From positions 62,001 to 126,000 of the forward strand of contig NZ_JAUQYP010000002.1 in NCBI RefSeq assembly GCF_030586465.1: 64,000 nt of DNA. Direction: 5' to 3'. Position numbers and translations under genes: made by a program. The number at the start of each line of letters is the position of its first letter. Position 1 is the first letter of the stretch. The stretch comes from Actinotalea lenta (GTDB taxonomy: Bacteria > Actinomycetota > Actinomycetes > Actinomycetales > Cellulomonadaceae). The notes under the pieces are model-generated. The model had not been told where the DNA came from. It saw only the letters and a program-made list of their open reading frames with translations, and did no database searches. This document shows, piece after piece, positions 22,401-42,605 of the stretch.

Positions 22401-23915
22401 CTACTTGCTCGCGTCGCCGGAGAAGTGGAACGACACCGGCCCGTTGTCCGCACGGTGCGGCCAGCGCTGCGTGACGACCTTGGCGCGGGTGTAGAACTTC
22501 ACGCCCTCGGGCCCGTAGATGTGGCTCTCGCCGACCAGCGACTCCTTCCAGCCGCCGAACGAGTGCCACGCGACCGGCACCGGGATCGGCACGTTGACGC
22601 CGATCATCCCGGCGGTGCCCTGCGCGCGCACGAAGGTGCGGGCCGCCTCGCCGGACGACGTGAAGATCGCGGCGCCGTTGCCGTAGGGGTTGGCCTGGAT
22701 CGTCGCGATCCCGGTGGCGAGGTCGGGGATCCGGATGATCTCCAGGGTCGGTCCGAAGACCTCCTCCTTGTTGATCGTCATCTCCGGGGTCACGCCGTCG
22801 ATCAGGGTCGGGCCCACCCAGTAGCCCTTCTCGTAGCCCTCGGGAGCGAACCCGCGACCGTCGACCAGGATGCGGGCGCCCTCCCGCTCCGCGGACGTGA
22901 TGAGCGAGACGATCCGGTCGCGCGCCTGCGCGCTGATGATCGCGCCCATGTCGGCGTCCGGCGTCATGCCCTCGGCGACCTTGACCCTCGCGGCCTTCTC
23001 GGTCAGCCGCGCGACCAGCTCGTCGGCGATCGAGTCCTGCACCAGGGCGACCGGGAGGGCCATGCAGCGCTCCCCGGCGGCGCCGTAGGCCGCGGCGACG
23101 AGGTTGTCGGCGGCGTGCTCGAGGTCCGCGTCCGCGAGCACGACGGCGTGGTTCTTGGCCGCGCCGAGGGCCTGGACCCGCTTGCCGTGCTCGGAGGCGA
23201 CGGCGTGGATGTGCTTGGCCGTGGTCGTGGAGCCGACGAACGACACCGCGGCGATGTCCGGGTGGGTGAGGAGTCGGCCGATGACGTCGCGGTTGCCGTG
23301 CACCACGGTGAACGCGCCGTCGGGCAGACCTGCCTCCTTCCACAGCTCCGCGAGGAACATCGCGGCACCCGGGTCCCGGGTCGGGGGCTTGAGCACGAAC
23401 GTGTTCCCGGTGGCGAGGGCGACCGGCGACATCCACAGCGGGATCATCACGGGGAAGTTGAACGGCGTGATGCCCGCGACCACGCCCACCGGCTGGCGGA
23501 ACGAGTACACGTCGATCCCGGTCGCCGCCTGATCGGAGTACTCACCCTTGAGCAGGGTCGGGATGCTGCAGGCGAACTCCACCACCTCCAGGCCGCGGCT
23601 GATCTCGCCCTTGGCGTCCGAGAAGACCTTGCCGTGCTCGCGCGTGACGATCTCGGCCAGCTCGTCGGTGTGCTGGACCAGGAGCTCGCGGAACCGGAAC
23701 ATCACGGCGGTGCGCTTGGCGAGTGAGTACTCCGACCAGATCTCGAAGGCGGCTGCCGCGCTCGCGATCGCGGTCTCGACCTCGGCCGGGGTGGCGGAGG
23801 CCACCTGACCGACGACCTCGCCGGTCGCGGGGTTCTCGACGGGGACCACGACGTCCTCGGCGCCCACGTACGGCTTGCCGTCGATCCAGTGCGGGATGGT
23901 GGGGATGGTGCTCAC
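22401..23915 (-). CDS. mmsA: CoA-acylating methylmalonate-semialdehyde dehydrogenase
   Basis: A 504-residue aldehyde dehydrogenase-fold enzyme. Signatures of the MmsA/IolA family are PFNFPVMIPLWM (151-162), the NAD loop FVGSTTTAKHI, and catalytic Cys284 in GERCMALPVAL. It converts malonate or methylmalonate semialdehyde plus CoA and NAD to acetyl- or propionyl-CoA in valine, inositol or related catabolism. The start is GTG 23915, eight bases after AAGGAGA; the longer open frame upstream is not supported. It faces away from the Mo-hydroxylase operon across a 531-bp gap and may handle its end product (inference). Confidence 0.9.
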   Translation of the reverse strand: MSTIPTIPHWIDGKPYVGAEDVVVPVENPATGEVVGQVASATPAEVETAIASAAAAFEIWSEYSLAKRTAVMFRFRELLVQHTDELAEIVTREHGKVFSDAKGEISRGLEVVEFACSIPTLLKGEYSDQAATGIDVYSFRQPVGVVAGITPFNFPVMIPLWMSPVALATGNTFVLKPPTRDPGAAMFLAELWKEAGLPDGAFTVVHGNRDVIGRLLTHPDIAAVSFVGSTTTAKHIHAVASEHGKRVQALGAAKNHAVVLADADLEHAADNLVAAAYGAAGERCMALPVALVQDSIADELVARLTEKAARVKVAEGMTPDADMGAIISAQARDRIVSLITSAEREGARILVDGRGFAPEGYEKGYWVGPTLIDGVTPEMTINKEEVFGPTLEIIRIPDLATGIATIQANPYGNGAAIFTSSGEAARTFVRAQGTAGMIGVNVPIPVPVAWHSFGGWKESLVGESHIYGPEGVKFYTRAKVVTQRWPHRADNGPVSFHFSGDASK

Positions 23916-24446
23916 GACTGTCTCCTTCGATCGGTGCTGCTCATCCGCTCGTTCCGCCGTGCGGGCCGACTCCGGGCGATCGAGCTGGGCATGTGAGGCG
24001 TCTCGACGTCGGTTCATCGATTGTTCATGAGAGAGGTGTCGACCTGCTGACGATGCCGCTCCAAGGGTTCCGGGGGGAGGGGCTGGCGGCCGCCTCCATC
24101 GTTCACCGGATCGGCGGAAGATCATCCCATCACAGGTCAGATGCCGTTTTTCCGGGCCGGCGCGATGACGAGGACGTCACCGACCGATCCCGGGCCGAGG
24201 GCCGCAGCCTCGGGGGACACCCGGCGCCACCACCTCCTCGTGTGCTCCTTGACAACGCCTCACGGCCGTACACTACAGTGAATTATCGATGATCTGCGGA
24301 GCGGTAGACAAGACCCGCTGCGCGAAGGGAGCCGGCGGCTTGGCACCACGTATCGGGATGGCGAACGGGGCGCGAGGACGCGACCGCGGAGCCCCCGGGC
24401 GCGCTGCGACCACGACCGGCTTCGTGAACCAGGAAGGGACACCCGG
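23916..24446. other. 531-bp divergent intergenic region
   Basis: There is no credible gene here. It holds the leader and promoter of the methylmalonate-semialdehyde dehydrogenase gene on the minus strand, with a weak palindrome match TTCATCGATTGT at 24013-24024 (9 of 12). It also holds the promoter and operator of the HPr-kinase-like gene on the plus strand at 24249-24293, then a leader of about 160 nt. Confidence 0.6.
24249..24293 (+). promoter_or_regulatory. Promoter with ATTATCGATGAT operator at the start point
   Basis: TTGACA (24249-24254) and TACAGT (24274-24279, 19-bp spacing) form the promoter of the Mo-hydroxylase operon. The palindrome ATTATCGATGAT (24282-24293, 11 of 12 to the consensus) starts two bases after the -10 and covers the expected +1, a classic repressor position. 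The same arrangement is seen at 39771-39814. Confidence 0.65.
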
Positions 24447-25340
24447 ATGACCAGCAAGCTGCAGCTGAGGGAGCAGTTCTCGGCATGCGGAGCGCCGCTG
24501 CGCGTCGACGTCTACGGCGACGCGCCCCGTGAGCACGTGCTCGACGACCTGACCTTCCTCAACTACCGGCTCGCCGAGGTCGTCATCTCACCCGACATCA
24601 CCGTGGACACCCCGGACATCGTCTGGCAGATGGACGGCGAGAAGGGCGTGAGCTACGACGGTCACACCATGACCTTCACCGGCGACTGGCCGGCCGGCCC
24701 GCTGCAGAAGGCGATCGTGACGATGCTGACCCTCCGGATGGAGGAGATCGGCCTGCACCCGTTCCACTCCGCGGCGGTGAACTACCGGGGCAAGACCGTC
24801 CTGATCCTCGGCGGGGAGTCGAACCACGGCAAGTCCATGGCGCTGATCGAGGCCGGCGTGCGCGGCGGCGTCCAGGTCGCCTCCGAGACCTCGGTGATCG
24901 ACGAGCAGGGCGTCGTCGTCAAGGGCTCGGTCGAGCCGTTCCTGGTCAAGCGCACCGAAGGCACCGAGCGTGCCGACAAGGCGGCCCCGAACAAGGGTGT
25001 CGAGAAGTTCTGGGGCACGATGCCCCGCTGGGAGATCACCGACCAGCCGGCCGAGATCGACGTCGTGCTGGTCCCGGCGATCGACGGCAACTTCGACCCG
25101 AGCACCACCGAGCTCATCCCCTTCGAGAAGCAGTTCCAGGCGCTGCACTCGCTGCAGAACTACCTGCTCACCAACGAGCTCCTCGCCCCCGGGCACCCGA
25201 TGCCCGTCGTCGACACCGACGAGCGCCGACAGGCGAGGGCCGACTTCCTGCAGTCCTTCTGCACCCGGCCCTTCTTCTTCATCCGTGCGGCCACGCCGCA
25301 GGTCCTGCTCGACGAGTTCGACAAGACCTATGACGCTTAG
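24447..25340 (+). CDS. HPr-kinase-like P-loop protein of unknown function
   Basis: A 297-residue cytoplasmic protein. Residues 104-131 read HPFHSAAV then VLILGGESNHGKS, which resembles the C-terminal catalytic fold of HPr kinase and related PEPCK-like P-loop proteins, with Lys129 and Ser130 in the Walker A. The usual GxSGxGKS is changed to GGESNHGKS. The rest (SLQNYLLTNELLAPG, SFCTRPFFFIRA) is not a known regulatory domain to me. It is the first gene of the Mo-hydroxylase operon, directly behind the operator, so it may phosphorylate a pathway intermediate or a protein. The substrate is unknown. Confidence 0.6.
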   Translation: MTSKLQLREQFSACGAPLRVDVYGDAPREHVLDDLTFLNYRLAEVVISPDITVDTPDIVWQMDGEKGVSYDGHTMTFTGDWPAGPLQKAIVTMLTLRMEEIGLHPFHSAAVNYRGKTVLILGGESNHGKSMALIEAGVRGGVQVASETSVIDEQGVVVKGSVEPFLVKRTEGTERADKAAPNKGVEKFWGTMPRWEITDQPAEIDVVLVPAIDGNFDPSTTELIPFEKQFQALHSLQNYLLTNELLAPGHPMPVVDTDERRQARADFLQSFCTRPFFFIRAATPQVLLDEFDKTYDA

Positions 25341-25395
25341 GACCGGCCCGGCCACCCGGCCCGCGCACGAGCGCGACGCTGCAGGAGAGGAACCG

Positions 25396-26286
25396 ATGAG
25401 CACCTACGACGAGCTCGGCCGGATGGCCGACTTCCCGGCCGGGCAGGTCGTGAAGGCCGCGTCGATGATCCGCACCGGGACCGTGGTGTCGCTCGCCGGT
25501 GTGCGGTTCCCCGGCATGCCGCTGTTCCCCGGTCACCCGCCGTTCCAGGTGCTCAACTACCGCACCCCCCGGGGCATCCGGGCCACCGGTGCCCAGCCGT
25601 GGGGCCCGGTCAACGACGTGGGCCTCGGCTACATGGCCGAGTACCTCATGGCGTCGTCCCACTCGGGCACCCACGTCGACGCCCTCGCCCACATGACGAT
25701 CGGCGAGGACATGCACTGGTACGGCGGGGGCAACCCCGACGAGCACCTGAGCGACTTCGGCCCGATGGTCGGCGACGCGTCCCACCTGCCGCCCTTCTTC
25801 ACCCGAGGCGTGCTGGTGGACGTCCCGGGGCACCGCGGCGTGCAGTCCCTGGAGGCCGGCGAGCCGGTCGACGTCGACGAGGTCAAGGAGATCCTGGCCG
25901 CACAGCGCGTCGAGGTGCGGCCCTGGGACGTGGTGCTGTTCCGCACCGGGTACCTGAGCTGGTGGCCGGACGCCGAGCAGCTCGCGGCGCACCGCACGGC
26001 AGGCCCGGACATCTCCGTGGCCCGCTGGCTGCTCGAGCAGGGCGTGGTCGCGGCGGGATCCGACACCGAGACGTTCGAGGTCCAGCCCGCGCCCGACCCC
26101 GGGCCGGAGGGCAACCCCCAGCCCGTGCACAACGCGCTGCTCATCGAGAACGGCGTCTACATCCTCGAGAGCGTCGACCTCGAGGAGATCGCACGCCGCA
26201 AGGTCTACGAGTTCTGCTTCGTCGCGCTCCCGCTGAAGATCCGCGGCGCGACGGGCTCGATGGTCGACCCGGTCGCCATCTACTGA
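25396..26286 (+). CDS. Cyclase-family metal hydrolase (kynurenine-formamidase-like)
   Basis: A 296-residue member of the PF04199 cyclase family with the metal-binding signature HSGTHVDALAH (His89, His93, Asp95, His99). The family includes bacterial kynurenine formamidase, isatin hydrolase and other amide- or lactone-opening enzymes, usually Zn or Mn dependent. Second gene of the operon, SD CAGGAGAGG. Together with a Mo-hydroxylase it suggests a ring is hydroxylated and then hydrolysed; that is an inference. Confidence 0.82.
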   Translation: MSTYDELGRMADFPAGQVVKAASMIRTGTVVSLAGVRFPGMPLFPGHPPFQVLNYRTPRGIRATGAQPWGPVNDVGLGYMAEYLMASSHSGTHVDALAHMTIGEDMHWYGGGNPDEHLSDFGPMVGDASHLPPFFTRGVLVDVPGHRGVQSLEAGEPVDVDEVKEILAAQRVEVRPWDVVLFRTGYLSWWPDAEQLAAHRTAGPDISVARWLLEQGVVAAGSDTETFEVQPAPDPGPEGNPQPVHNALLIENGVYILESVDLEEIARRKVYEFCFVALPLKIRGATGSMVDPVAIY

Positions 26287-26312
26287 CACACCCGAACAGG
26301 AGACGCACAGGC

Positions 26313-27368
26313 ATGACAGAGACGATGGAGGCCCTGGTGGTCCTCGAGCCCTCCGTGCTCGAGATCCAGCAGATCCCGGTGCCGGAGCCGGGCCCGAACG
26401 AGGTCCTGGCGCGGGTACGCGCGGTGTCGATCTGCGGCACCGACGCCCACCTGATCCACGGCGACTACCCGGGCTTCTGGCCACCGTCGTTCCCGTTCAC
26501 CCCGGGCCACGAGTGGGCCGGCGAGATCGTCGCGCTCGGCGAGGGCGCCGACAGGCTGGGGTGGAAGGTCGGGGACCGGGTGGCCGGCACGAGCCACAAC
26601 GCGTGCGGCGTGTGCCAGAAGTGCGTCGAGGGCCGGTACAACCTCTGCGAGAACTACGGCAAGCCGGGCCTGCACAAGCAGTACGGCCACAGCTATCAGG
26701 GCGTCGACGCCACCTACGCGGTGCACAACGTCAAGTGCATCTTCGCGCTGCCCGACTCGATCTCCTTCGACGAGGCCGCGGTGATCGACCCGGCGAGCAT
26801 CGCCCTGCACGTGGCCCGGCGCGGCAACATCCAGCCCGGTGACACCGTGGTGGTCACCGGCGCCGGGTCGGTGGGCCTGCTCGCGGCGGACAGCGCGCTG
26901 GTCTGCGGCGCCGCGCGCGTCGTGGTCGTCGGGCGGGGCTACCGCCTCGCCAAGGCCGCCGCGATGGGCTTCGAGACCGTCGACACCAAGGACGGCGACC
27001 CGGTCGCGGCCGTGCGGGCCCTGACCGACGGGCTCGGCGCGGACGTCGTGCTCGAGTGCGCCGGTGTGCCCGAGACCCTCGGATGGGCGATGGCCATGCT
27101 GCGGCGCGGGGGGCGGTGCGCCATGGTCGGCATCCCCACGCAGGCCGTGTCGCTGAACGTCCAGCCGCTCGTCCTCGACGAGCTCGAGCTGGTCGGCTCG
27201 CGTGCCTCCGCGGGCGAGATGCGGCGCGTCATGCCGTTCGTCGCCAACGGCCGGGTGCGGGCCGGCGAGCTCATCACCCACCACTTCCCCCTGACGGAGT
27301 ACCAGCAGGCGCTCGACACCTTCAACGACCGCACCAGCGGTGCGATCAAGATCATCGTCCATCCCTGA
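26313..27368 (+). CDS. Zinc-dependent dehydrogenase (threonine/sorbitol dehydrogenase-like)
   Basis: A 351-residue MDR enzyme with catalytic zinc motifs SICGTDAHLIHGD and PGHEWAGEIV, the structural zinc lobe CGVCQKCVEGRYNLC, and the Rossmann motif VVTGAGSVGLLAADSA. It likely oxidises a secondary alcohol to a ketone with NAD. Third gene of the operon, 26 nt after the cyclase gene. Specificity is unknown. Confidence 0.85.
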   Translation: MTETMEALVVLEPSVLEIQQIPVPEPGPNEVLARVRAVSICGTDAHLIHGDYPGFWPPSFPFTPGHEWAGEIVALGEGADRLGWKVGDRVAGTSHNACGVCQKCVEGRYNLCENYGKPGLHKQYGHSYQGVDATYAVHNVKCIFALPDSISFDEAAVIDPASIALHVARRGNIQPGDTVVVTGAGSVGLLAADSALVCGAARVVVVGRGYRLAKAAAMGFETVDTKDGDPVAAVRALTDGLGADVVLECAGVPETLGWAMAMLRRGGRCAMVGIPTQAVSLNVQPLVLDELELVGSRASAGEMRRVMPFVANGRVRAGELITHHFPLTEYQQALDTFNDRTSGAIKIIVHP

Positions 27369-27436
27369 CAGCACCGACCGACGCCGGGCAGGCGCCGGGC
27401 GGCTCCTGACAGTCGCTCGAGGAAAGGTCTACGTCG

Positions 27437-28285
27437 ATGGTGACGTACTACAAGGCACACGCCGTTGCCGACGCCCTGGAGGTGCTGGGGCGCACGGACG
27501 TCGAGGCCAAGGCCCTGCTGGGAGGCACCGACCTCCTGGTCGGGCTCGGCGATCGGCTCGACAGCGCACCGGGCGTCGTGGTGGACCTCAAGGGTCTCGC
27601 CGACGGCGAGCCGCTCGCCGTGACGGAGAGCGGCGTGCGGATCGGCCTGACCGTGACCATGGCGGACCTCCTGGCAGACCCCACGGTCAGCACGTGGTAC
27701 CCGGCGCTCGCCCAGGCCGCGGGCGAGGTCGGCTCCGTGGCGATCCGCAACCGCGCCACCCTGGTCGGCAACATCTGCAACGCGTCACCGGCCTGCGACA
27801 CCGCCCCCGCGCTGCTCGTGCACGGCGCGCAGGTGCGGATCGCGTCGGCCGCCGGCGAGCGCGTGGTCCCGATCTCGGAGTTCTTCGTGGGCCCGCGCGC
27901 CACGACGTGCGCGCGCGACGAGCTCGTCACCGCCGTCGAGCTGCCCCGCCCCGTGCCGGGCACCGGCAGCGCCTTCCAGCGGCTGACCCGGCGCTGGGGG
28001 GTGGACCTGGCGACCGTGAGCGTCGCCGCCGCCGTGCACGGCGACGGCCGGATCCAGCTCGGGCTCGGCGCCGTGGCGCCCACTCCGCTGCTGGTCGACG
28101 TGCCGGCCGGCACCGACCTGACCGATCGCGCGGCACTCGACCCGGTGCTCGACGAGGTGCTGGCCGTGGCCACGCCGATCTCGGACATCCGTGCGGGCGC
28201 CGACTACCGGGCCGCGATGGTGCGGGAGCTCGCCGCCCGCACCCTCCGGGCGGCCCTCGACTCGACGAGGAGGACCCAGGCATGA
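27437..28285 (+). CDS. Molybdenum hydroxylase FAD-binding subunit (CoxM/XdhB-like)
   Basis: A 282-residue FAD subunit with the two FAD-binding motifs LLGGTDLLVG (27-36) and IRNRATLVGNICNASPACD (about 102-120). It transfers electrons from the [2Fe-2S] subunit to NAD or another acceptor. The order FAD, Fe-S, Mo subunit matches carbon-monoxide-dehydrogenase-type and many N-heterocycle or aldehyde hydroxylases. The stop overlaps the Fe-S gene start (ATGA). Confidence 0.9.
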   Translation: MVTYYKAHAVADALEVLGRTDVEAKALLGGTDLLVGLGDRLDSAPGVVVDLKGLADGEPLAVTESGVRIGLTVTMADLLADPTVSTWYPALAQAAGEVGSVAIRNRATLVGNICNASPACDTAPALLVHGAQVRIASAAGERVVPISEFFVGPRATTCARDELVTAVELPRPVPGTGSAFQRLTRRWGVDLATVSVAAAVHGDGRIQLGLGAVAPTPLLVDVPAGTDLTDRAALDPVLDEVLAVATPISDIRAGADYRAAMVRELAARTLRAALDSTRRTQA

Positions 28286-28776
28286 GCGTCGGTACCGAGT
28301 CGCTGGTGACGGTCACCGCGACCATCAACGGCGAGCCCCGCACCTTCACCGTGCCGGGCCACCGCACCCTGCTCGACGCGCTGCGCTCGGAGCTGGGCCT
28401 GACGGGCACCAAGAGCAGCTGCACCGAGGGGGAGTGCGGGGCCTGCACCGTCATGCTCGACGGCCACGCGGTGAACTCCTGCCTGGTGCTCGCCGCCGAG
28501 GTCGACGGCCACGAGGTCCTCACCGTCGAGGGCGTCTCCGTCGACGGCGGGACCGACCTCCAGCAGGCGTTCCTCGAGCACGGTGCGGTGCAGTGCGGGT
28601 TCTGCATCCCCGGCCAGGTGATGTCCGCCGAGTACCTGCTGTCCCGCAACCCAGACCCCAGCGTGCAGGAGATCCGGGACGCGATGTCCGGGAACCTGTG
28701 CCGCTGCGCCAGCTACAACCGGATCGTCGAGGCGGTCCGCCAGACCGCTACGAAGAGGGTGAGCACCCGTGGGTGA
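28282..28776 (+). CDS. Molybdenum hydroxylase [2Fe-2S] subunit (CoxS-like)
   Basis: A 164-residue subunit with both iron-sulfur clusters: plant-ferredoxin type Cys47, Cys52, Cys55, Cys67 (CTEGECGACTV...NSCLV) and the helical-domain cluster Cys105, Cys108, Cys140, Cys142 (QCGFCIPGQ, NLCRCASY). It passes electrons from the molybdenum centre to FAD. It overlaps both neighbours (4 and 8 nt), so the three subunits are co-translated. Confidence 0.93.
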   Translation: MSVGTESLVTVTATINGEPRTFTVPGHRTLLDALRSELGLTGTKSSCTEGECGACTVMLDGHAVNSCLVLAAEVDGHEVLTVEGVSVDGGTDLQQAFLEHGAVQCGFCIPGQVMSAEYLLSRNPDPSVQEIRDAMSGNLCRCASYNRIVEAVRQTATKRVSTRG

Positions 28777-31087: not shown

Positions 31088-31121
31088 GCCGTACGCAACA
31101 CCGGTCCGTCGACCGTCCGGC

Positions 31122-34301: not shown

Positions 34302-34356
34302 CCCCGGCGGACGGACGACATGACGAATCCACACGGGGGTGAGGCCGATCTCAACG

Positions 34357-34368
34357 ATCATCGATGAT
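34357..34368. promoter_or_regulatory. Perfect palindrome ATCATCGATGAT upstream of the DUF1097 gene
   Basis: This is the only exact copy of the 12-bp island palindrome. It lies in the 157-nt gap between the cytidylyltransferase and DUF1097 genes. No good -10 box is visible directly before it. Confidence 0.6.
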
Positions 34369-34370
34369 TC

Positions 34371-34399
34371 GGTGCGCTCAGGCGCCGCCTGAGCGCACC
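34371..34399 (+). terminator. Hairpin next to the palindrome
   Basis: GGTGCGCTCAGG (34371-34382) pairs with CCTGAGCGCACC (34388-34399) around a 5-nt loop. It begins two bases after the operator. It could end the upstream operon or act in the leader of DUF1097. Confidence 0.55.
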
Positions 34400-34458
34400 C
34401 CCGTGACATCCCCCAGCGGGCACCGACGCCCGCGTCGAACAAAGGAGTTCTGGGTCCA

Positions 34459-35052
34459 ATGGAGAAGAAGGAACGCATGCCCCTGTGGCTGGCGGTCGCG
34501 ATCACCGTGGTGATCGCCCTCCCGCTCGGCCTCTGGCTGAAGGAGTTCAGCCTCCCCCTGTGGATCGTCTTCGCGGTCTGGGCGGAGTACTTCGCATTCG
34601 GCGGGACGCTCAAGGGCGCGCGCACGCTCGCGCCGGCGTTCCTCACCGGTGCCGGCGTCGCCCTGGCCGTCCAGGCGTTCGCGACCTTGCTGATCGACCT
34701 GTTCGGCAGCGCACAGCTGGTGGTGCCCGGTGACGTCGCGATCCTCGTGGCGTACTTCATCGGGTTCTGCGTGTTCGTGTGGATGATGAAGTTCTTCCAG
34801 GTGCTCCAGGGCGGCTCGCTGGCGTACTTCCAGGGGATCGCGCTCACCCTCGGGTCGATCTTCACGGGCCAGGGCGCGGCGTGGGTCGGTCACTCGACCA
34901 ACAGCTACGCCCTTCTCATCGGCGCGGCGATCGTCGCGATCGTGTCCTGCTTCGCGGGCATCCTGATCGGCTGGATCAACATCTGGCTCAACGGGGTCAG
35001 GGACGTCCCGGAGGCAGCTGCGGCCACCGAGGCGGCGGCGGCGACAGCCTGA
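34459..35052 (+). CDS. DUF1097 family membrane protein
   Basis: A 197-residue integral membrane protein with about five hydrophobic helices (LWLAVAITVVIALPLGLWL, LWIVFAVWAEYFAFGG, FLTGAGVALAVQAFATLLI, VAILVAYFIGFCVFVWMM, YALLIGAAIVAIVSCFAGILIGW). The layout fits DUF1097 (YcdZ-like). The C-terminus is Ala/Glu/Thr-rich. The ATG follows AAAGGAG at 34441. It may be the transporter or a transport accessory of the island, since no other permease is encoded there. Family identification is moderate. Confidence 0.7.
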   Translation: MEKKERMPLWLAVAITVVIALPLGLWLKEFSLPLWIVFAVWAEYFAFGGTLKGARTLAPAFLTGAGVALAVQAFATLLIDLFGSAQLVVPGDVAILVAYFIGFCVFVWMMKFFQVLQGGSLAYFQGIALTLGSIFTGQGAAWVGHSTNSYALLIGAAIVAIVSCFAGILIGWINIWLNGVRDVPEAAAATEAAAATA

Positions 35053-35323: not shown

Positions 35324-36634
35324 TCAGCGCGGGTGGGGCGCGACCTGCACAGGCAGCTCGGGTGACCACGGCGGGAGCGGGATCGCCGCCATCGCCTGAC
35401 CGGCCTCGACCTGGGTCACCTCCGCCGGGACCACCGCCAGCGCGTGGGCCAGGTGCAGCGAGCCGACCAGGTGCGAGGCGGAGCCGAGCCGGTGGGTGGG
35501 GCGGGCCAGGAACGGCTCGCCCGGCCGCTCCGGCGGCTCGAGGCGCACCGGCGCGTACTGCCGGCGACCGGCGGGGGAGCGCCACGCCTCGGCAGCCCTG
35601 ACCGGCACCGTGGCGGTCTCGGCGTGCGGGTCACGGCCGGCGAGGACCGCCAGGGCGGGTCGGACGAGCACCCGGAACCCGACGAACGAGCTCACCGGGT
35701 TGCCCGGGAGGGCGAGCACCGGCACGTCCCCGTGGGAGGCCGCCAGCGTGCCGAGGCCTTGCGGCTTGCCCGGCTGCATCGCGACCTGGACGAAGCGCAC
35801 CCGGGGCGACTCGAGGGCCTGGCGCACCACCTCGTACGCGCCCGCGGAGATCCCGCCGCACGTCACCACCAGGTCGGCGGCCTCGGCCGCGCGGGCCAGG
35901 ACCGCGCGCAGCGTGCCCGGGTCGTCACCCACCCGCTCGGCGACCGGGACGTCGGCACCCCACTCGGTCGCGAGCGCGACGAGCATCGTGAGGTTCGAGT
36001 CCGGGATCGTGCCCCCGCCGAGCGCCTCACCGGGCGCCGCGAGCTCGTCGCCGGTCGAGACGACGGCCAGCCGGGGCCTGCGCGCCACCGGCAGCTCGCC
36101 GTAGCCCACCGCCGCGGCCGCGGCGAGCGCGGCCGCTCCGAGCCTGGTCCCGGCCGGCATCACGGGCGCGCCCACCGCCACGCCCTCGCCGCGGTGGCGC
36201 ACAGAGGCGCCGACCACCACGGGCTCGAGGACGCGCACCGCGGGGGGCAGCGGCACCGACCCGCGCGGCTGGTCGGTCAGCTCGACGGGCACCACGGCGT
36301 CGGCGCCCTCGGGCAGGGGAGCGCCGGTCATGATGCGGATCGCGGTGCCGGGGGCGAGCACGGACGCACCGCGTGGCCCGGCGGGCTGGTCGTCCGCGAC
36401 CGGCAGCTCGACGGGCCGCCCGGCGGACGCGCCGGCCACGTCGGCGGCGCGCACGGCGAACCCGTCCATCGAGGAGTTGGTGAACGGGGGAGCGGGCAGC
36501 CGGGCGGTGAGGTCCGCCCTGAGCGTCAGCCCCAGGCACGCGGCGAGCGGAAGCGTGGCTGCCGGCGGTGGGCTCACCAGCTCCAGGATCTCGGCGAGGT
36601 GCTCGTCAACGGTCCTGGTGGGCGACTCGGGCAT
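35324..36634 (-). CDS. moeA: Molybdopterin molybdotransferase MoeA
   Basis: A 436-residue MoeA. Typical stretches are PPFTNSSMDGFAVRAADV, IMTGAPLPEGADAVVPVE, VVSTGDEL, DSNLTML, TCGGISAGAYEVV and ALPGNPVSS. It inserts molybdate into adenylylated molybdopterin in the last common step of cofactor synthesis. The ATG at 36634 follows GAGGAACGCG. The minus-strand gene has a palindrome copy 38 nt upstream of its start, placing it in the island regulon. Confidence 0.92.
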   Translation of the reverse strand: MPESPTRTVDEHLAEILELVSPPPAATLPLAACLGLTLRADLTARLPAPPFTNSSMDGFAVRAADVAGASAGRPVELPVADDQPAGPRGASVLAPGTAIRIMTGAPLPEGADAVVPVELTDQPRGSVPLPPAVRVLEPVVVGASVRHRGEGVAVGAPVMPAGTRLGAAALAAAAAVGYGELPVARRPRLAVVSTGDELAAPGEALGGGTIPDSNLTMLVALATEWGADVPVAERVGDDPGTLRAVLARAAEAADLVVTCGGISAGAYEVVRQALESPRVRFVQVAMQPGKPQGLGTLAASHGDVPVLALPGNPVSSFVGFRVLVRPALAVLAGRDPHAETATVPVRAAEAWRSPAGRRQYAPVRLEPPERPGEPFLARPTHRLGSASHLVGSLHLAHALAVVPAEVTQVEAGQAMAAIPLPPWSPELPVQVAPHPR

Positions 36635-36671: not shown

Positions 36672-36683
36672 ATCATCGATCAT
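36672..36683. promoter_or_regulatory. ATCATCGATCAT palindrome between moeA and the GntR gene
   Basis: An 11-of-12 match to ATCATCGATGAT lies in the 162-bp divergent gap between moeA and the GntR/FCD regulator gene, 114 nt before the regulator start. The regulator's likely -10 is TAGACT at 36761-36766. The site could serve autoregulation and control of moeA. Confidence 0.6.
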
Positions 36684-36796: not shown

Positions 36797-37534
36797 ATGG
36801 TCAGCCGCTCGGCAGGGCCGCTGTGGGAGCAGGTCAAGGAGATCCTGCTCAAGCGGATCATCGCCGGTGAGCTCGCGCCGGACGCCCGCATCGTCGAGGT
36901 CCAGGTCGCCCGGGAGCTCGGGGTCAGCCAGGCCCCGGTGCGGGAGGCGCTGAAGTCCCTCGAAGCCCTCGGGCTGGTCGACATCCTGCCGTTCAGCGGT
37001 GCCCGGGTGCACCGCCAGACCCCCAAGGAGCTCCTGGACGCCTACTCCGTGCGCGCCGAGCTCGAGGTGCTCGCGATCCGCTTCGCCTCGGCCCGCGGCG
37101 CGAACTTCTCGTCCCTGACGGCGCGGATGGGGGACATGTACCACGCAGCGGCCGAGGGCGACATGATGCGTCTGTCGATCGCCGACACGGCCTTCCACGA
37201 GGAGATCATCAAGGCGTCGGACAACGCCGAGCTCCTGCGGCTGTGGCACAACCTGCAGCCGAGCACGCGCGCGTACATCACCCTGATCAGCCCCGGGGCG
37301 GACCCGAACTGGACGGTGGGCCTGCACCCCCCGATCCTCAACACGCTCCTGGCGGGCGACCTCGAGGGTGCGACCGAGGCGATGCGTCAGCACTTCGCGC
37401 TCGCGCGGGCACGGCTGGAGGTCGGCATCGCTCACCGCGGTGAGGACGAGCCGCCTGCCGCGCTCCAGGCCGCCGTCGAGGCAGAGGCGACGGCCAAGGC
37501 CGCCGCCGAGGCGAGCAGCGCCGTCATCGCCTGA
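36797..37534 (+). CDS. GntR/FCD family transcriptional regulator
   Basis: A 245-residue regulator. The N-terminal GntR winged helix is LWEQVKEILLKRIIAGELAPDARIVEVQVARELGVSQAPVREALKSLEALG. The C-terminal FCD domain has YSVRAELEVLAIRFA, DTAFHEEIIKASDN (Asp and His metal/ligand residues), and a last conserved His in MRQHFALA. FCD regulators normally sense organic acids or sugar acids. It is the only regulator inside the 22-42 kb island and therefore the first candidate to bind ATCATCGATGAT. Its stop overlaps the convergent transketolase gene by 11 nt. Confidence 0.88.
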   Translation: MVSRSAGPLWEQVKEILLKRIIAGELAPDARIVEVQVARELGVSQAPVREALKSLEALGLVDILPFSGARVHRQTPKELLDAYSVRAELEVLAIRFASARGANFSSLTARMGDMYHAAAEGDMMRLSIADTAFHEEIIKASDNAELLRLWHNLQPSTRAYITLISPGADPNWTVGLHPPILNTLLAGDLEGATEAMRQHFALARARLEVGIAHRGEDEPPAALQAAVEAEATAKAAAEASSAVIA

Positions 37535-38465
37535 GTCGCTCGGCCACCTGCGCGGCCACCTTCGCCGGGGTGAGGCCGTACAGGTCCAGGAGGTCGTCGT
37601 TGGTCCCGGACTCGGGATACACGTCCTGGAAGCCGAGCCGGTCCAGCCTGGTCGGGCGGTGCTCGGAGAGGACCTCCGCCACCGCGCCACCCAGCCCACC
37701 GAGCACGGAGTGCTCCTCGATGGTGATGACGCGCCCGGTGGACGCGGCGTCGACGATGCCGTCCACGTCGAGCGGCTTGAGGGTGGGCACGTGCACCACG
37801 CGCGCGTCCACGCCCTGCTCGGCGAGCAGGTCCGCGGCCTGCAGAACGCGTGGCGTCTGGGTTCCGGTGGACAGCAGCGACACGTCGGAGCCCTCGCGCA
37901 GGACGGCGACCGTCCCGATCTCGAAGGGGCGCCCCGGTTCGAAGACCCGCGGCGTGGCGTCCCGCACCAGGCGGACGTACACCGGTCCCTCGTACTGCGC
38001 GGCCCACCGCAGGGCGCCCTCGGCCTCGACGTCGTCCGCGGGTGCGATGACGACCATGCCGGGCATGTCGCGCATGATCGCGAGGTCGTCGACGATGATG
38101 TGGCTCATCCCCGTGGACCCGGTGAACAGACCCGCGTAGCTCGGCGTGATCTTGACGTTGGCGCCGGTCTGCGCGATGAGCACGCGCACCTGGTCCAGCG
38201 GCCGCACCACGGCGAACGCGACGAACGTCGACACGAACGGGATGAGCCCGGTCGTGGCCAGGCCGGCTGCGACCCCGAGCATGTTCTGCTCCGCGATGCC
38301 CATCTCGAGGAACCGGTCCGGGTGAGCCTTCTCGACGATGTCCGCCTTCGTCGAGCTCGCCACGTCGCCGTCGACGACGACGATCCGCGGGTCGTCGTCG
38401 GCGAGCGCCGCGACCACCCGGCCGAACACCTCGCGCTGGGCCACGCCCATGGGGAGCGTCATCAT
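37524..38465 (-). CDS. Transketolase C-terminal subunit (split type)
   Basis: A 313-residue protein with the transketolase pyrimidine-binding domain (VVVDGDVASSTKADIVEK, RFLEMGIAEQNMLGVAAGLA with the conserved Glu) and C-terminal domain (VITIEEHSVLGGLGGAVAEVL). It pairs with the N-terminal subunit encoded immediately upstream (stop/start overlap) to form a thiamine-diphosphate transketolase. Such split enzymes often replace the housekeeping one in particular sugar pathways. Confidence 0.9.
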   Translation of the reverse strand: MMTLPMGVAQREVFGRVVAALADDDPRIVVVDGDVASSTKADIVEKAHPDRFLEMGIAEQNMLGVAAGLATTGLIPFVSTFVAFAVVRPLDQVRVLIAQTGANVKITPSYAGLFTGSTGMSHIIVDDLAIMRDMPGMVVIAPADDVEAEGALRWAAQYEGPVYVRLVRDATPRVFEPGRPFEIGTVAVLREGSDVSLLSTGTQTPRVLQAADLLAEQGVDARVVHVPTLKPLDVDGIVDAASTGRVITIEEHSVLGGLGGAVAEVLSEHRPTRLDRLGFQDVYPESGTNDDLLDLYGLTPAKVAAQVAERLRR

Positions 38466-39364
38466 CACTGCCTCACCGCCTCGGTCCCGGCGCCGAGATC
38501 GGCGAGCGCCGTCGCGTAGTCCTCGGGGCTCAGCGGCTTGCTGTGCCACGTGTAGTCGTCCTCCATGTACGACACGCCCTTCCCCTTGACCGTCTGGGCG
38601 ATGATCGCCGTCGGACGCGAGTCCGTCTGCTCGATCGCCTGGCGCAGGGTCGCCAGGATGTCCCGCATGTCGTGCCCGTCCATGTCGAGGACCCGCCAGC
38701 CGAACGCCCGCCACTTGTCGGCGAGCTGACCGGGCGTGTGCGGCGGCTTGACCAGCCGGGTCGGGCCGTCGCGGTCGACGAGCCAGCCGAACTGCTGGAG
38801 GTGGTTCTCGTCGACGATCACCACGAGGTTGTCCAGGCGGTGGCGGGCGGCGGCCATCGCGGCCTCCCAGACCTCGCCCTCCTGGCACTCTCCGTCGCCG
38901 AGCATCGCGAACGCGAGGAAGTCCTTGCGCTGCAGGCGTGCGCCGAGCGCCATCCCCATCGCGGCGGAGATCCCCATGCCCAGGGACCCGGTGGACATGT
39001 CGATGCCGGGCAGCCGGGTCATCTCGGGGTGGCCCTGGAGGCGTGAGTGCACGGCGTCGAACGTCAGGAGCTCGTCGACCGGGAGGTAGCCACGGTGCGC
39101 CATCGTGGCGTAGAGGCCGATCGCGGAGTGCCCCTTGGAGAGCACGAACCGGTCGCGGTCCGGCCACGTCGGCTCGTCCGGCCGGATCCGCAGGACCTTG
39201 AAGTAGAGCGCGGTGAGGATGTCCGCCGCGGACAGCGGCCCGCCGAGGTGACCGGCCTTGGCGACGTTGATCGCCTCGATCACCGAGATGCGCACCTGGC
39301 GGGCTGTCTCCTCGAGCGCGGCGATCTCCGCGTCGTCGAAGGAGGCGGGCAGTCGTGGCGCCAT
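38465..39364 (-). CDS. Transketolase N-terminal subunit (split type)
   Basis: A 299-residue thiamine-diphosphate-binding half: KAGHLGGPLSAADIL, FVLSKGHSAIGLYA, and GDGECQEGEVWEAAMAA followed by VDENHLQQFG (the GDG...N thiamine motif). It transfers two-carbon ketol units between sugar phosphates. The gene lies between the cupin gene (2-nt gap) and the C-terminal subunit. The presence of a transketolase in an island with a Mo-hydroxylase implies a ketose or sugar-like intermediate. Confidence 0.9.
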   Translation of the reverse strand: MAPRLPASFDDAEIAALEETARQVRISVIEAINVAKAGHLGGPLSAADILTALYFKVLRIRPDEPTWPDRDRFVLSKGHSAIGLYATMAHRGYLPVDELLTFDAVHSRLQGHPEMTRLPGIDMSTGSLGMGISAAMGMALGARLQRKDFLAFAMLGDGECQEGEVWEAAMAAARHRLDNLVVIVDENHLQQFGWLVDRDGPTRLVKPPHTPGQLADKWRAFGWRVLDMDGHDMRDILATLRQAIEQTDSRPTAIIAQTVKGKGVSYMEDDYTWHSKPLSPEDYATALADLGAGTEAVRQ

Positions 39365-39365: not shown

Positions 39366-39728
39366 TCAGCTCTCCTTCTCGTAGGAGCCGGCGCGCACCG
39401 AGGGCGTGAAGACGCACAGCAGCTCGAGGTCCTCGGGTCCGTCCGACTCCGTCGCGTGGAAGGTGCCGGGGGCGACGTGGACCAGGACGCCGGGCGTCAG
39501 CTCCGCCGTGGCGTCCGGGGAGACGATGCGACCGCGTCCCTTGACGCAGAAGATCGTCTCCTCCTCGGCCGGGTGGATGTGGCCTTCCGGGCGCGAGCCG
39601 GCCGGGTACACCGACAGTCCGATGGACAGGTGCTCGGCGTCGCTGTTCCAGGGGCCGAAGTAGGTGTGGAACGTGCGTCCAGGCAGATCGATGGACTCGG
39701 CGTCCTCGAGGACGTAGCGCGTGATCAC
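39366..39728 (-). CDS. Cupin-domain protein
   Basis: A 120-residue single cupin with metal-binding motif 1 (GHIHPAEEETIFCVKGRGRI) and motif 2 (PGVLVHVAPGTFHATES). It is first gene of the minus-strand cupin-transketolase operon. The start is GTG 39728 with AAGGAG about 10 nt upstream. Small cupins in sugar pathways are often isomerases or mutarotases; the reaction here is unknown. Confidence 0.8.
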   Translation of the reverse strand: MITRYVLEDAESIDLPGRTFHTYFGPWNSDAEHLSIGLSVYPAGSRPEGHIHPAEEETIFCVKGRGRIVSPDATAELTPGVLVHVAPGTFHATESDGPEDLELLCVFTPSVRAGSYEKES

Positions 39729-39770: not shown

Positions 39771-39814
39771 ATTATCGATGATTTACACTAGTGACGGCCG
39801 CGATCGAGCGTCAA
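39771..39814 (-). promoter_or_regulatory. Promoter with ATTATCGATGAT operator for cupin-transketolase operon
   Basis: Read on the minus strand: TTGACG (39814-39809), 18 bp, TAGTGT (39790-39785), two bases, then the palindrome (39782-39771) over the expected +1. This matches the layout at 24249-24293 and strongly suggests one repressor controls both operons. Confidence 0.7.
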
Positions 39815-39902: not shown

Positions 39903-40961
39903 ATGATCATCGATGACAACCCGGTGCTGGTGATGCCGAGCCGTGAGCCGGCGGACGGTGCGGAGCTCGTGGACTCCCTGGGCCGGGTCGCACGCACGCT
40001 GCGTGTCTCCCTGACGGATCGCTGCACGCTCCGCTGCCGCTACTGCCTGCCGGCCGACGGCGTGCCGTGGATGCCCACCGAGGAGATGCTGACCGACGAC
40101 GAGGTCGTGCGGCTCGTCCGCCTCGCCGTCGAGCGGCTCGGCGTCCGTCGGGTGCGGCTGACCGGGGGGGAGCCGCTGCTGAGGCGCGGTCTCGTCGGGA
40201 TCGTGGCGCGGATCGCCGAGCTGCGGACGGCCCTCGGGACCCCGCCCCGCATCGCGCTGACGACGAACGGGGTGAGCCTGGCGCGATGGGCCGACGACCT
40301 GGCCGCGGCGGGGGTGGGCCGGGTCAACGTCTCGCTCGACACGCTGGACCCCGAGCTCTACGCCGCGATGACCCGACGGGACCGGTTGGCCGACGTGCTC
40401 GCCGGGCTCGCAGCGGCGCGGCGGGCCGGCCTCACGCCGATCAAGGTCAACGCGGTCCTGCTGCGCGGGGTCAACGACCACGAGGCCGTGCCGCTGGTGC
40501 GCTGGGCCGTGCGCGAGGGGTACCGGCTCCGGTTCATCGAGCAGATGCCGCTCGGGCCGGCGCAGGAGTGGGACCGCAGCCGGCTCGTGACGGCGGCGGA
40601 GATCCTGGAGCGACTGCGGGCCGAGCTGGACCTGGTGCCCCTGCCCGCGGCTCAGCGGGGCTCGGCACCCGCAGAGATGTGGCAGGTGGCCGGGACGGAC
40701 GCCGAGGTCGGGGTCATCGGGGCTGTCACGCGCCCGTTCTGCGCGGCGTGCGACCGTGTGCGTCTGACCGCGGACGGGCACGTGCGCACGTGCCTGTTCG
40801 CCGCGACCGAGACGGACCTGCGCTCGCTGCTGCGCGCGGGCGCGGGCGACGAGGAGCTGGCACGTGCGTGGCGCACGGCGATGCTGACCAAGCCGGCCGC
40901 CGGCATCCGCACCGGGCTGGTCGCCGCGCCGGATCGGCTCATGAGCGAGATCGGCGGTTGA
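39903..40961 (+). CDS. moaA: GTP 3',8-cyclase MoaA
   Basis: A 352-residue radical SAM enzyme. The N-terminal cluster is Cys41, Cys45, Cys48 (DRCTLRCRYCLP), the C-terminal GTP-binding cluster is Cys280, Cys283, Cys297, and the required C-terminal Gly-Gly is present. It converts GTP to 3',8-cyclo-GTP, the first step of molybdenum cofactor synthesis. ATG 39903 is preferred over GTG 39855. The palindrome ATCATCGATGAC covers codons 2-5, so the regulator would sit on the start of the gene. It is likely a dedicated copy for the island. Confidence 0.9.
   Translation: MIIDDNPVLVMPSREPADGAELVDSLGRVARTLRVSLTDRCTLRCRYCLPADGVPWMPTEEMLTDDEVVRLVRLAVERLGVRRVRLTGGEPLLRRGLVGIVARIAELRTALGTPPRIALTTNGVSLARWADDLAAAGVGRVNVSLDTLDPELYAAMTRRDRLADVLAGLAAARRAGLTPIKVNAVLLRGVNDHEAVPLVRWAVREGYRLRFIEQMPLGPAQEWDRSRLVTAAEILERLRAELDLVPLPAAQRGSAPAEMWQVAGTDAEVGVIGAVTRPFCAACDRVRLTADGHVRTCLFAATETDLRSLLRAGAGDEELARAWRTAMLTKPAAGIRTGLVAAPDRLMSEIGG
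39906..39917. promoter_or_regulatory. ATCATCGATGAC operator copy at the moaA start codon
   Basis: An 11-of-12 match to the island palindrome starts directly after the ATG of moaA. It is partly coding (Ile-Ile-Asp-Asp), so the constraint is double. Confidence 0.5.
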
Positions 40962-40963
40962 GG

Positions 40964-41530
40964 TCAGGGGCTGTTCACCCACTGGGAGGTGCCGTCGGCG
41001 AACACCTGGCGCTTCCAGACCGGGACCCGCTGCTTGACCCGGTCGACGAGCGCCGCCGTGGCGGCGAACGCCTCGGCGCGGTGCGCGGAGGAGACCGCCG
41101 CGGCCAGCGCGCAGTCGCCGACCTCGAGCCGTCCCACCCGATGCGTCACCGCCAGCGCGTCCAGGCCGAAGTCCGCCACGACCTCCTCGGCGATCTGGCG
41201 CATCAGGGCGGCGGCCGAGGGGTGAGCGCTGTACTCGAGGTGGTCGACCGACGACCCGTGGTCGTGATCGCGGACGACGCCGGCGAACGTGACGAGCGCC
41301 CCGGCGTGGTCCCGCGCGACCAGCCGGGCGAGAGCCTCGGCGTCGATCGGCCGATCCGTCACGTCGGCGGTCACGCCGGGGATGAGCGCACCCCGGGGAG
41401 CATCATCGATGGGGAGATCGCGCGCCTCCGGTGGGGGCGCCGCAGCGTCGACGAGGACTCCCCAGGCGCGACCGGCGTTCCTTTGCGACGATTCCACGGC
41501 GGCCAGCGTACTGTCCGATGCGCATTTCAT
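40964..41530 (-). CDS. moaE: Molybdopterin synthase catalytic subunit MoaE with N-terminal extension
   Basis: 188 residues from ATG 41530. The last 140 are MoaE: GALVTFAGVVRDHDHG, LEYSAHPSAAALMRQIAEEV, HRVGRLEVGDCALAAAVSSAHRAEAF, and KQRVPVWKRQVF with the catalytic lysines. It adds sulfur to precursor Z together with MoaD. About 50 extra residues at the N-terminus are unusual; a start further in is possible, but no good one with a ribosome site was seen. No moaC, moaD or mogA is in the window. The gene is convergent with moaA. Confidence 0.85.
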   Translation of the reverse strand: MKCASDSTLAAVESSQRNAGRAWGVLVDAAAPPPEARDLPIDDAPRGALIPGVTADVTDRPIDAEALARLVARDHAGALVTFAGVVRDHDHGSSVDHLEYSAHPSAAALMRQIAEEVVADFGLDALAVTHRVGRLEVGDCALAAAVSSAHRAEAFAATAALVDRVKQRVPVWKRQVFADGTSQWVNSP

Positions 41531-41537
41531 CGATGAT
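41526..41537. promoter_or_regulatory. TTCATCGATGAT operator copy between moaE and the MBL gene
   Basis: An 11-of-12 match to the island palindrome overlaps the moaE start codon (41530-41528) and lies 55 nt before the divergent MBL-fold gene. It could control both. Confidence 0.55.
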
Positions 41538-41591
41538 CCTGTCGCGGCCTGCACGGGGACGCCCGAGTGGGCGCCGAGCACGAGGAGACCG

Positions 41592-42605
41592 ATGCCAGCC
41601 CACACAGGCACGCAGCTGCTGCTCCTGGGTACCGCCGGTGGTGCGGCCACCTACCCGGTCCGCGGAGCAGGCGCGTCGGCGCGCAGCGGGATCGCGTCGG
41701 CGATCGTGGTGGGTGGCCGCGTCCACCTGGTCGACGCCGGTCAGGGTGTCGCGCGGCAGCTGACCTTCGCGGATGTCGCGGGGGCGGGACCGGCCCACGC
41801 CCTGCGGCCCCTGCGGGCCGTGTACCTGACGCACCTGCACTCCGACCACACGATGGACCTGGTCAACCTGCTGCACTGCGGGTACGTCCAGGGCTGGCCC
41901 GACGCTCCGGTGGACGTCTTCGGACCGGGACCGCGCGACGGCGTGCCCGGGGCGCCGACGGACCGGCGTCGGGCCGGAGCGCACCTGGGCACGACCCGCT
42001 TCCTCGAGCGGCTCATCGACGCGTTCGCCGCGGACTTCGACGACCGGGTCTCGGCGTCCCGCCGCCCCGAGCCGTCGACGTTGGTCACGGCCCACGACGT
42101 CCTGCCGCCGGCCGGTTCGGCGGACGTGTCAGCCGGCATCCCGCCGGTCGACCCGTGGTTCGTCGCGGAGTACCCCGACCTGCGGGTCACCGCGACGCTG
42201 GTCGACCACGGCGAGATGCTGCCGTCCCTGGCCTATCGGTTCGACACCGAGGCCGGCTCCGTGGTCTTCTCCGGCGACACCTCGCCGTCCCCGAACCTGG
42301 TCCGGCTCGCCCAGGGCGCCGACATCCTCGTGCACGAGGTGATCGCCGCCCGCTACGCCACGTGGCAGTACGGCCCCGAGCCGCTCACCGAGCGGCAGCG
42401 GCTCGCCGCCGCCACGGTCATGGCCAAGCACACGCCTTCCGACCAGGTCGGTGCCATCGCGGAGGCCGCCGGGGTCCGCACGCTCGTCCTGACCCACCTG
42501 GTGCCAGCATCGGTGCCCGCCGCGCTGTGGCGGGAGGCCGTGCGGGGGTTCAGCGGCGAGGTCGTGGTGGGGGAGGACCTCCTGACGATCCCCGTCGGTC
42601 GCTGA
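41592..42605 (+). CDS. MBL-fold metallo-hydrolase (RNase Z / lactonase-like)
   Basis: A 337-residue metallo-beta-lactamase-fold protein with the zinc signature THLHSDHTMDLVNLL, SGDTSPSPNLV, the later histidine in HEVIAA and the C-terminal THLVP. It resembles RNase-Z-like hydrolases that act on small molecules such as lactones or phosphodiesters. There is no signal peptide. Its divergent position to moaE with a shared palindrome suggests a step of the island pathway, perhaps hydrolysis of a cyclic intermediate (inference). The start ATG 41592 follows GAGGAG. Confidence 0.8.
   Translation: MPAHTGTQLLLLGTAGGAATYPVRGAGASARSGIASAIVVGGRVHLVDAGQGVARQLTFADVAGAGPAHALRPLRAVYLTHLHSDHTMDLVNLLHCGYVQGWPDAPVDVFGPGPRDGVPGAPTDRRRAGAHLGTTRFLERLIDAFAADFDDRVSASRRPEPSTLVTAHDVLPPAGSADVSAGIPPVDPWFVAEYPDLRVTATLVDHGEMLPSLAYRFDTEAGSVVFSGDTSPSPNLVRLAQGADILVHEVIAARYATWQYGPEPLTERQRLAAATVMAKHTPSDQVGAIAEAAGVRTLVLTHLVPASVPAALWREAVRGFSGEVVVGEDLLTIPVGR

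Follow-up and report, generated by a model that had tools for sequence, protein, structure and literature searches.

Tm-1 is a plant virus-resistance protein, and its domain family, UPF0261, is widespread yet seldom treated in the full-text literature; two of the few papers that mention it deal with Brucella. The oxidative inositol pathway has an MmsA-type end, and neither a molybdenum hydroxylase nor a UPF0261 protein is known to be part of it. In the anaerobic phloroglucinol pathway of Clostridium scatologenes, as a published account presents it, the ring of dihydrophloroglucinol is opened in a retro-Claisen hydrolysis by an enzyme of the cyclase family, after which a dehydrogenase and then a BKACE take over (PMC10470551). 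The UPF0261 domain itself is termed uncharacterized in another publication (PMC5028733). The subject of this analysis is an island of 19 genes (22401-42605) that combines a molybdenum hydroxylase (CoxMSL), a cyclase-family hydrolase and a UPF0261 protein in a 64,000-nucleotide stretch of the Actinotalea lenta genome (the window: C2:62001-126000 of a 3.3-Mb genome in three contigs; window G+C about 72%). The island is a genuine, patchily distributed catabolic unit and a candidate regulon, and its genes probably break down a ring-shaped compound.

Genes were called with our own codon-usage script, so that their starts are approximate, and were identified by Pfam and NCBIfam scans. A preliminary description of this DNA had counted about 19 island genes and named 16 products; all 16 are present, and a GntR regulator, a DUF1097 protein and a P-loop protein complete the 19:

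22401..23915 (-), malonate/methylmalonate-semialdehyde dehydrogenase, MmsA type (TIGR01722, 656.3 bits, above the cut-off of 448.5)
24447..25340 (+), P-loop protein of 297 aa with Walker A GESNHGKS, without family match
25396..26286 (+), cyclase-family hydrolase with HxxTHxD-type motif (PF04199)
26313..27368 (+), zinc dehydrogenase (Pfam/NCBIfam)
27437..28285 (+), CoxM, FAD subunit of the molybdenum hydroxylase (Pfam)
28282..28776 (+), CoxS, 2Fe-2S subunit (Pfam)
28769..31087 (+), CoxL, molybdopterin subunit (Pfam/NCBIfam)
31231..32487 (+), UPF0261 (Tm-1-like) protein (Pfam/NCBIfam)
32623..33705 (+), XdhC/CoxI maturation factor (Pfam)
33702..34301 (+), MocA-like nucleotidyltransferase for molybdenum cofactor (Moco) maturation (Pfam/NCBIfam)
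34459..35052 (+), DUF1097 protein, perhaps a membrane transporter (Pfam)
35324..36634 (-), MoeA, molybdenum insertion (Pfam/NCBIfam)
36797..37534 (+), GntR/FCD regulator (Pfam)
37524..38465 (-), split transketolase, C-terminal chain, altered acceptor site (Pfam, alignment)
38465..39364 (-), split transketolase, N-terminal chain (Pfam, alignment)
39366..39728 (-), small cupin (Pfam)
39903..40961 (+), MoaA (TIGR02666, 356 bits, cut-off 284.05)
40964..41374 (-), MoaE (Pfam)
41592..42605 (+), MBL-fold hydrolase, adjoining a shared site (Pfam/NCBIfam)

Two further short open reading frames in the island are doubtful and stand outside the 19.

A six-gene core in distant relatives

The genes for the zinc dehydrogenase, cyclase, CoxM, CoxS, CoxL and UPF0261 occur together in all 12 genomes (the window genome included) with a dehydrogenase at least 60% identical, and in each they fall within about 12 kb; every genome was picked through one of the six, so the test covers the other five. 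The preliminary description had taken the island for one catabolic unit and had named scattering of its genes in relatives as grounds for abandoning that view; the core does not scatter, and the unit stands. What is fixed is these six genes and not the set of 19, the remainder of which varies among relatives. The conserved set is thus six genes, or eight counting the P-loop protein (9 of 12 clusters) and the GntR regulator, of which a relative at least 38% identical is present in 9 of 12.

The zinc dehydrogenase of the window is 60-95% identical to those of the 11 other clusters. A UPF0261 scan of named genomes returned 10 loci, five without the cluster (38-41% identity) and five with it: Streptomyces cellulosae (L004), a Propionibacteriaceae metagenome-assembled genome (MAG; L005), Saccharopolyspora flava (L006), an Actinomycetales MAG (L007; 78-97% per protein) and the Actinobacteria MAG RBG_16_68_21 (L008). 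A dehydrogenase scan added one cluster in the order of L006 (L040, 85%), and the class of L008 contributed five more (L043-L047; 61-66%). Three dehydrogenases of 46-48% identity (L048-L050) have none of the core nearby and were excluded from the 12. With seed genomes counted, a close dehydrogenase is carried by 2 of 249 genomes in the order of L006, 1 of 199 in the genus of L004 and 1 of 176 in the order of L005; in the window genome's class it is found in 1 of 394, its own. Nine of 148 genomes in the class of L008, the seed included, have dehydrogenase relatives, six of these at 60% or above. In these genome samples the cluster is rare in those groups, which does not prove absence.

The accessory genes recur less widely within the stretches examined, MoeA, MocA, DUF1097 and MoaA in L007 only, and XdhC in L007 and L041 only. 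The P-loop protein matched nothing in Pfam or NCBIfam and nothing in the PDB better than E 0.54; it was found in its own genome only among 297 genomes of the order and in a 396-genome sample of the phylum, and not on plasmids. Its structure model has a mean pLDDT of 46.3 from just four sequences. The protein may resemble HPr kinase; the scans gave it no family match.

On plasmids, UPF0261 has 343 records, all below 60% identity. Six neighbourhoods were viewed, one of them unannotated, and a hydroxylase and a cyclase lie nearby in only one of the five annotated ones, that of Thermomicrobium roseum; UPF0261 as such is therefore not tied to the island pathway. The T. roseum cluster (L014 7059-24343) consists of a transporter, UPF0261, PEP_hydrolase, GntR, a cyclase, a pair resembling phosphoenolpyruvate (PEP) synthase, FAH and a molybdenum hydroxylase behind the same palindrome as in the island (described below). 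A PEP-utilising protein (PF00391 in L043) accompanies T. roseum and six clusters of the L008 class, and PEP_hydrolase (PF09370) adjoins UPF0261 or BKACE in L043 and L061 (Pfam), T. roseum (annotation) and L044 (similarity). The window's own genome encodes a second UPF0261, 42% identical to the first (L042 9556-11608, on C2 about 45 kb beyond the window), and the gene next to it is PEP_hydrolase-like, judged by its first residues. An FAH-family hydrolase, a glyceraldehyde-3-phosphate-dehydrogenase-like gene and phosphoglycerate kinase adjoin the cluster in L008 (6455-9846; Pfam) and L062 (1549-5485; by look). Several kb past the cluster, L062 8283-13963 holds 2-oxoacid:ferredoxin-oxidoreductase-like and homogentisate-dioxygenase-like genes, by first residues only.

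A palindrome shared by the sub-operons

The sub-operons of the island are preceded by a palindrome, ATYATCGATRAT, first spotted by reading intergenic gaps. The pattern WTNATCGATNAW occurs at five sites in the window, where 0.01 are expected, all inside 24.2-41.6 kb. With at most one mismatch, ATYATCGATRAT has eight sites genome-wide, seven of them in the island, and a reversed-pattern control has none. One of the seven lies 1.06 kb ahead of the limit drawn in the preliminary description and another at the called MoaA start; the eighth genome site (C1:295024) is inside a called gene of another region. The island sites, given without strand, are:

21343..21354, ATCATCGATAGT, operator-like site with one mismatch, ending 8 bases before the called start of the dehydrogenase at 21363
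24282..24293, ATTATCGATGAT, operator-like palindrome in the gap separating MmsA from the core operon
34357..34368, ATCATCGATGAT, operator-like palindrome upstream of DUF1097
36672..36683, ATCATCGATCAT, operator-like site in the MoeA-GntR gap
39771..39782, ATTATCGATGAT, operator-like palindrome in the cupin-MoaA gap
39906..39917, ATCATCGATGAC, second site, at the called MoaA start, possibly coding
41526..41537, TTCATCGATGAT, operator-like site in the MoaE-MBL gap, with a two-mismatch site at 41402-41413

The first of these precedes a zinc-binding dehydrogenase of the adh_fam_1 type (21363..22325, +; TIGR02817, 320.9 bits, cut-off 284), which lies just beyond the island limits and has an 83% relative in the same position in L007; it is a possible member of the regulon outside the core.

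A matrix built from five window sites only was then scored on the gaps of relatives. It reaches at least 11.8 bits, the lowest accepted score, at 19 of 22 cluster promoter gaps (15 of 18 without L007), as against 0 of 85 control gaps of at least 73 bases, drawn from the window and the relatives' loci with one or more of them counted twice; the best control scores 11.0. A site separates the E1-MmsA operon from the transporter-UPF0261 operon in L064 and L065, and UPF0261 from an MmsA-like gene in L047, and in T. roseum the palindrome lies 75 bp before a transporter operon running into UPF0261. A promoter scan gave one match, which overlaps the 24282 site (shuffles averaged 0.3).

As a second ground for abandoning the single unit, the preliminary description had named induction conditions that differ between the sub-operons; the operator-like site common to the sub-operons favours common regulation. 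MoeA, MoaA and MoaE border shared sites, so that cofactor synthesis appears to be wired to CoxMSL. CoxL is the genome's only MoCoBD_1 match in a search confined to that family, and MoaC is encoded elsewhere on C2. The chances seem about even that the island is a catabolic regulon for a cyclic compound in which the GntR/FCD protein, acting at ATYATCGATRAT, switches on the pathway enzymes together with the Moco genes; we infer the switching from the positions of the sites, and the chemistry throughout. The motif might instead be merely a common promoter motif of two neighbouring units, the hydroxylase operon at 24447-35052 and a module in which Moco housekeeping genes accompany the transketolase and cupin. 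It is true that, in the stretches examined, the split transketolase and cupin are found in 4 of 12 clusters (window, L007, L041, L046) and that 2 of 12 have Moco genes other than XdhC. However, three lineages (window/L007, L041 and L046) combine the core with the transketolase-cupin module, always under the same kind of site, and the division into two units strikes us as quite improbable.

Enzymes of the island and a possible route

The molybdenum hydroxylase belongs to the xanthine-oxidase family, with FAD, 2Fe-2S and molybdopterin domains (Pfam) and, in the KGMSEGP motif of CoxL, a Glu that we take to be the catalytic one. CO oxidation was considered and dropped: CoxL scores 251.9 and 277.3 bits against the cut-offs of 991.15 and 950 of the curated aerobic CO dehydrogenase models, and its loop AMRGYGAPQ, presumably at the position of the Cys-bearing active-site loop of CO dehydrogenase, has no Cys. 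Its best family and best PDB relative is 4-hydroxybenzoyl-CoA reductase, the alpha model of which it does not reach (403.9 bits, cut-off 994.55), and no curated cut-off was reached by CoxL in the NCBIfam scan.

The cyclase-family hydrolase is proposed to be the ring-opening enzyme. The HxxTHxD-type metal motif is kept in all aligned clusters, save for Gly-Ala variants at one place, and together with PF04199 it places the protein with the hydrolase of the phloroglucinol pathway at the level of family, any shared specificity being a prediction. Cyclase relatives on plasmids (53 records, four neighbourhoods viewed) include one on pAO1 with an adjoining three-subunit molybdenum hydroxylase and one in R. 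opacus with a single-chain molybdopterin oxidoreductase about 6 kb off; no molybdenum hydroxylase is annotated near the cyclase on a Streptomyces plasmid, and none was recognised in the gene-called Shinella plasmid.

The pAO1 nicotine cluster is the model for an N-heterocycle pathway, in which, as one may suppose for pAO1, CoxMSL would attack a ring of pyridine or pyrimidine type, adding a hydroxyl group next to N, and the resulting cyclic amide would be hydrolysed by the cyclase. In pAO1 (L025) the genes for a molybdenum hydroxylase (Kdh), a Dabb protein and XdhC lie with those for nicotine blue oxidoreductase and a cyclase 34% identical to that of the window. The window's MocA-like protein has nicotine blue oxidoreductase as its best family, at 106.7 bits far under the cut-off of 260. 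The cyclase family also includes isatin hydrolase, which cleaves an amide C-N bond, and in Saccharopolyspora flava a glutaminase-like gene, by first residues, lies one gene past UPF0261 (L006 12047-12958). We nevertheless find an N-heterocycle pathway unlikely. In none of the 12 clusters did the core genes, or the genes lying directly between them, include a recognisable amidase, deaminase or aminotransferase, many neighbours being judged only by similarity or first residues. Two candidates further off were picked out by eye: L061 has an amidase-like gene at 1400-2812, about 9 kb away, and L063 an acetylornithine-aminotransferase-like gene within a run of arginine type. Enzymes for malonate semialdehyde and 3,5-dioxo acids do not require nitrogen.

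For the zinc dehydrogenase the best family is IolM, at 209.7 bits (208.3 in L040, 203.1 in L046) against the NF041097 cut-off of 450. This points to a cyclitol or carba-sugar pathway, a variant of the oxidative inositol route in which the dehydrogenase would produce a diketo-cyclitol, the cyclase would open it, and transketolase and MmsA would finish. A polyhydroxylated skeleton would suit the transketolase, the MmsA and the glycerate kinase of L040, and a gene of the Gfo/Idh/MocA family, that of inositol dehydrogenase, is found close to the L008 cluster and, judging from the similarity of its sequence start, to that of L062. Yet the IolM score is below half of the cut-off and close to that for threonine dehydrogenase (204.0), and the window island shows no recognisable inositol dehydrogenase or dehydratase. 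The transporter adjoining the cluster is of the branched-chain-amino-acid type in T. roseum by annotation, in L043 by its binding protein (PF13458) and apparently in L063-L065; the cyclitol route, too, has a low probability in our estimate. The sugar- or polyol-like substrate of the preliminary description survives as one of several readings, against which stand that transporter type and the BKACE found in three relatives. BKACE in place of transketolase, together with this transporter, rather suggests a cyclic diketone or an aromatic-derived acid.

The presumed C-C cleaving enzymes vary among the clusters. The split transketolase matches the Carboxydothermus split enzyme (6yaj/6yak; E 1.2e-84 and 6.3e-82) and has the catalytic histidines and ThDP domains (alignment, Pfam), the catalytic and acceptor-site roles of residues being our assumption. 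Arg318, Ser345 and Arg474 (human numbering, hand-counted from the alignment) are kept. At the acceptor site, in all four island enzymes (window, L007, L041, L046), His416 is replaced by Tyr, Asp424 by Thr, and the Arg nine residues ahead of the GHP histidine by Asp, so that the canonical Arg, His and Asp are absent and Asp, Tyr and Thr stand instead. The Carboxydothermus enzyme, the closest solved split transketolase, retains all three, and a transketolase N half near a UPF0261 of 38% identity (L010) retains that Arg. The changed residues presumably correspond to E. coli H461, D469 and R91. The island enzyme would then be a natural transketolase with Thr where engineers put it in E. coli, in which D469 and R91 form a salt bridge and D469T frees Arg91 to bind an acceptor carboxylate (PMC5073344).

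Three clusters (L004, L006, L040) have a BKACE in place of the transketolase, and all three BKACEs pass the 3,5-dioxohexanoate:acetyl-CoA acetone transferase cut-off (468-479 bits, cut-off 430). An E1 is present in four, as alpha and beta in L043, L044 and L045 and as alpha only, at a contig edge, in L046; those of L043 and L044 were read from the upstream stretches L065 and L064 and Pfam-checked in L064 only. No transketolase, BKACE or E1 was seen in L008 and L047 in the stretches examined. A full MmsA-type dehydrogenase lies beside 5 of 12 clusters (window, L007, L043, L044, L047) and a fragment beside L045; those of the window, L064 and L062 score above the curated cut-off. It faces the core operon across a site in L047 (contig of L062) and, from behind the E1 genes, in L064 and L065. 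Two arginines, which we take to be carboxylate-binding, are kept in the MmsA of the window, L064 and L065, and L062 has Lys at one of them (alignment).

In the proposed route CoxMSL would hydroxylate the ring and the zinc dehydrogenase would then make a ketone, after which the cyclase-family metal hydrolase would open the ring by C-C (retro-Claisen) or C-O/C-N hydrolysis, on the model of dihydrophloroglucinol cyclohydrolase or isatin hydrolase. UPF0261, with ATP, might activate or rearrange an intermediate. The hydroxy-oxo acid so formed could be cut by the split transketolase, with transfer of two carbons to a sugar phosphate; the short aldehyde that remains would carry a carboxyl group and might plausibly be malonate semialdehyde, which MmsA would turn into acetyl-CoA and CO2; in relatives the cutting step may be taken by the 3,5-dioxohexanoate-type BKACE or the E1 alpha/beta pair. 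The enzymes found fit the outline of the preliminary description: an oxidation, opening of the ring, formation of a ketone, C-C cleavage (there a two-carbon transfer) and a semialdehyde at the end. In its fullest form, the reading is of a new ring-degradation route in which UPF0261, the Tm-1 domain family, is an ATP-dependent catabolic enzyme, malonate semialdehyde is released from the ring-opened hydroxy-oxo acid by a specialised two-chain transketolase, and three interchangeable C-C cleaving modules stand under one operator across distant actinobacterial lineages, with a remoter form in Thermomicrobium; taken whole, we rate this as tentative and rather doubtful.

Several points weigh against the regulon and its chemistry. 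The gaps and the matrix threshold were picked after a first look at the sites. The matrix misses the gaps before GntR in L004 (1.6 bits), before BKACE in L040 (8.3) and before GntR in T. roseum (10.3), and it finds matches of at least 13 bits outside the chosen gaps (L007 6119, L008 13707, L045 6442, window 39906). The GntR/FCD regulator is a candidate binder of the palindrome by co-location alone, and L008, L041 and L047 have the site, yet no GntR was recognised in the stretch examined. The transketolase-cupin module and the full MmsA accompany a minority of clusters, and MmsA-type enzymes serve other routes too. The Arg that D469T frees is itself Asp in the island enzymes, so the carboxylate argument would not transfer directly. 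Finally, no gene of the island names the substrate, as the preliminary description had held in calling it not inferable.

With the same core genes and candidate switch in distant bacteria, the degradation route and the UPF0261 family, here inside a tightly conserved pathway with a candidate operator, become testable; inducer screens built on the operator, together with a handful of the enzymes, could uncover the substrate and the role of UPF0261.

Elsewhere in the window, a sugar-type cluster at 8.2-19.1 kb was considered as part of the island and rejected, having no site within two mismatches. It is a separate sugar- or polyol-type cluster (8243-19066), with a DeoR regulator, a sugar-type ABC transporter, Dak1, Dak2, a BtpA-family protein, an FGGY kinase and an M29 peptidase; the palindrome is absent. 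On the Shinella plasmid (L022), Dak1/Dak2 and ABC relatives adjoin the cyclase relative (48%). The window also carries a heliorhodopsin gene (47357-48148, -; PF18761, 321.7 bits) and a gene for a bacterial archaeo-eukaryotic release-factor-like (baeRF) protein (49639-50781, -).

Comparison with described systems

In line with the preliminary description, no described pathway with this gene set was found in the literature searched. The anaerobic phloroglucinol pathway of C. scatologenes (PGR, DPGC, dehydrogenase, TAL) resembles the island in its cyclase-family hydrolase and dehydrogenase, and the clusters of L004, L006 and L040 in having a BKACE. The window island, however, lacks BKACE and TAL (Pfam scans), its dehydrogenase is a zinc enzyme and not of the 3-hydroxyacyl-CoA-dehydrogenase type, and it adds a molybdenum hydroxylase, UPF0261, transketolase and MmsA. 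Phloroglucinol reductase is a short-chain dehydrogenase/reductase (SDR); none was found among the island genes scanned, and SDR genes adjoin the L046 and L040 clusters.

The pAO1 nicotine cluster likewise brings together a molybdenum hydroxylase, a cyclase, XdhC and a MocA/nicotine blue oxidoreductase-like gene, but no UPF0261, zinc dehydrogenase, transketolase or GntR is annotated in the stretch listed, and it has a monooxygenase and a carbon-nitrogen hydrolase, unlike the island. The oxidative inositol pathway is approached through the IolM-like dehydrogenase and set apart by that enzyme's low score. The T. roseum plasmid cluster shares UPF0261, GntR, cyclase, CoxMSL and the palindrome; its cyclase and CoxL are 26% and 36% identical to those of the window, no zinc dehydrogenase is annotated in the stretch, and it has a PEP-synthase-like pair and FAH, unlike the window. 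With the Carboxydothermus split transketolase, the island enzymes have the two-chain organisation in common and differ in the three altered acceptor-site residues.

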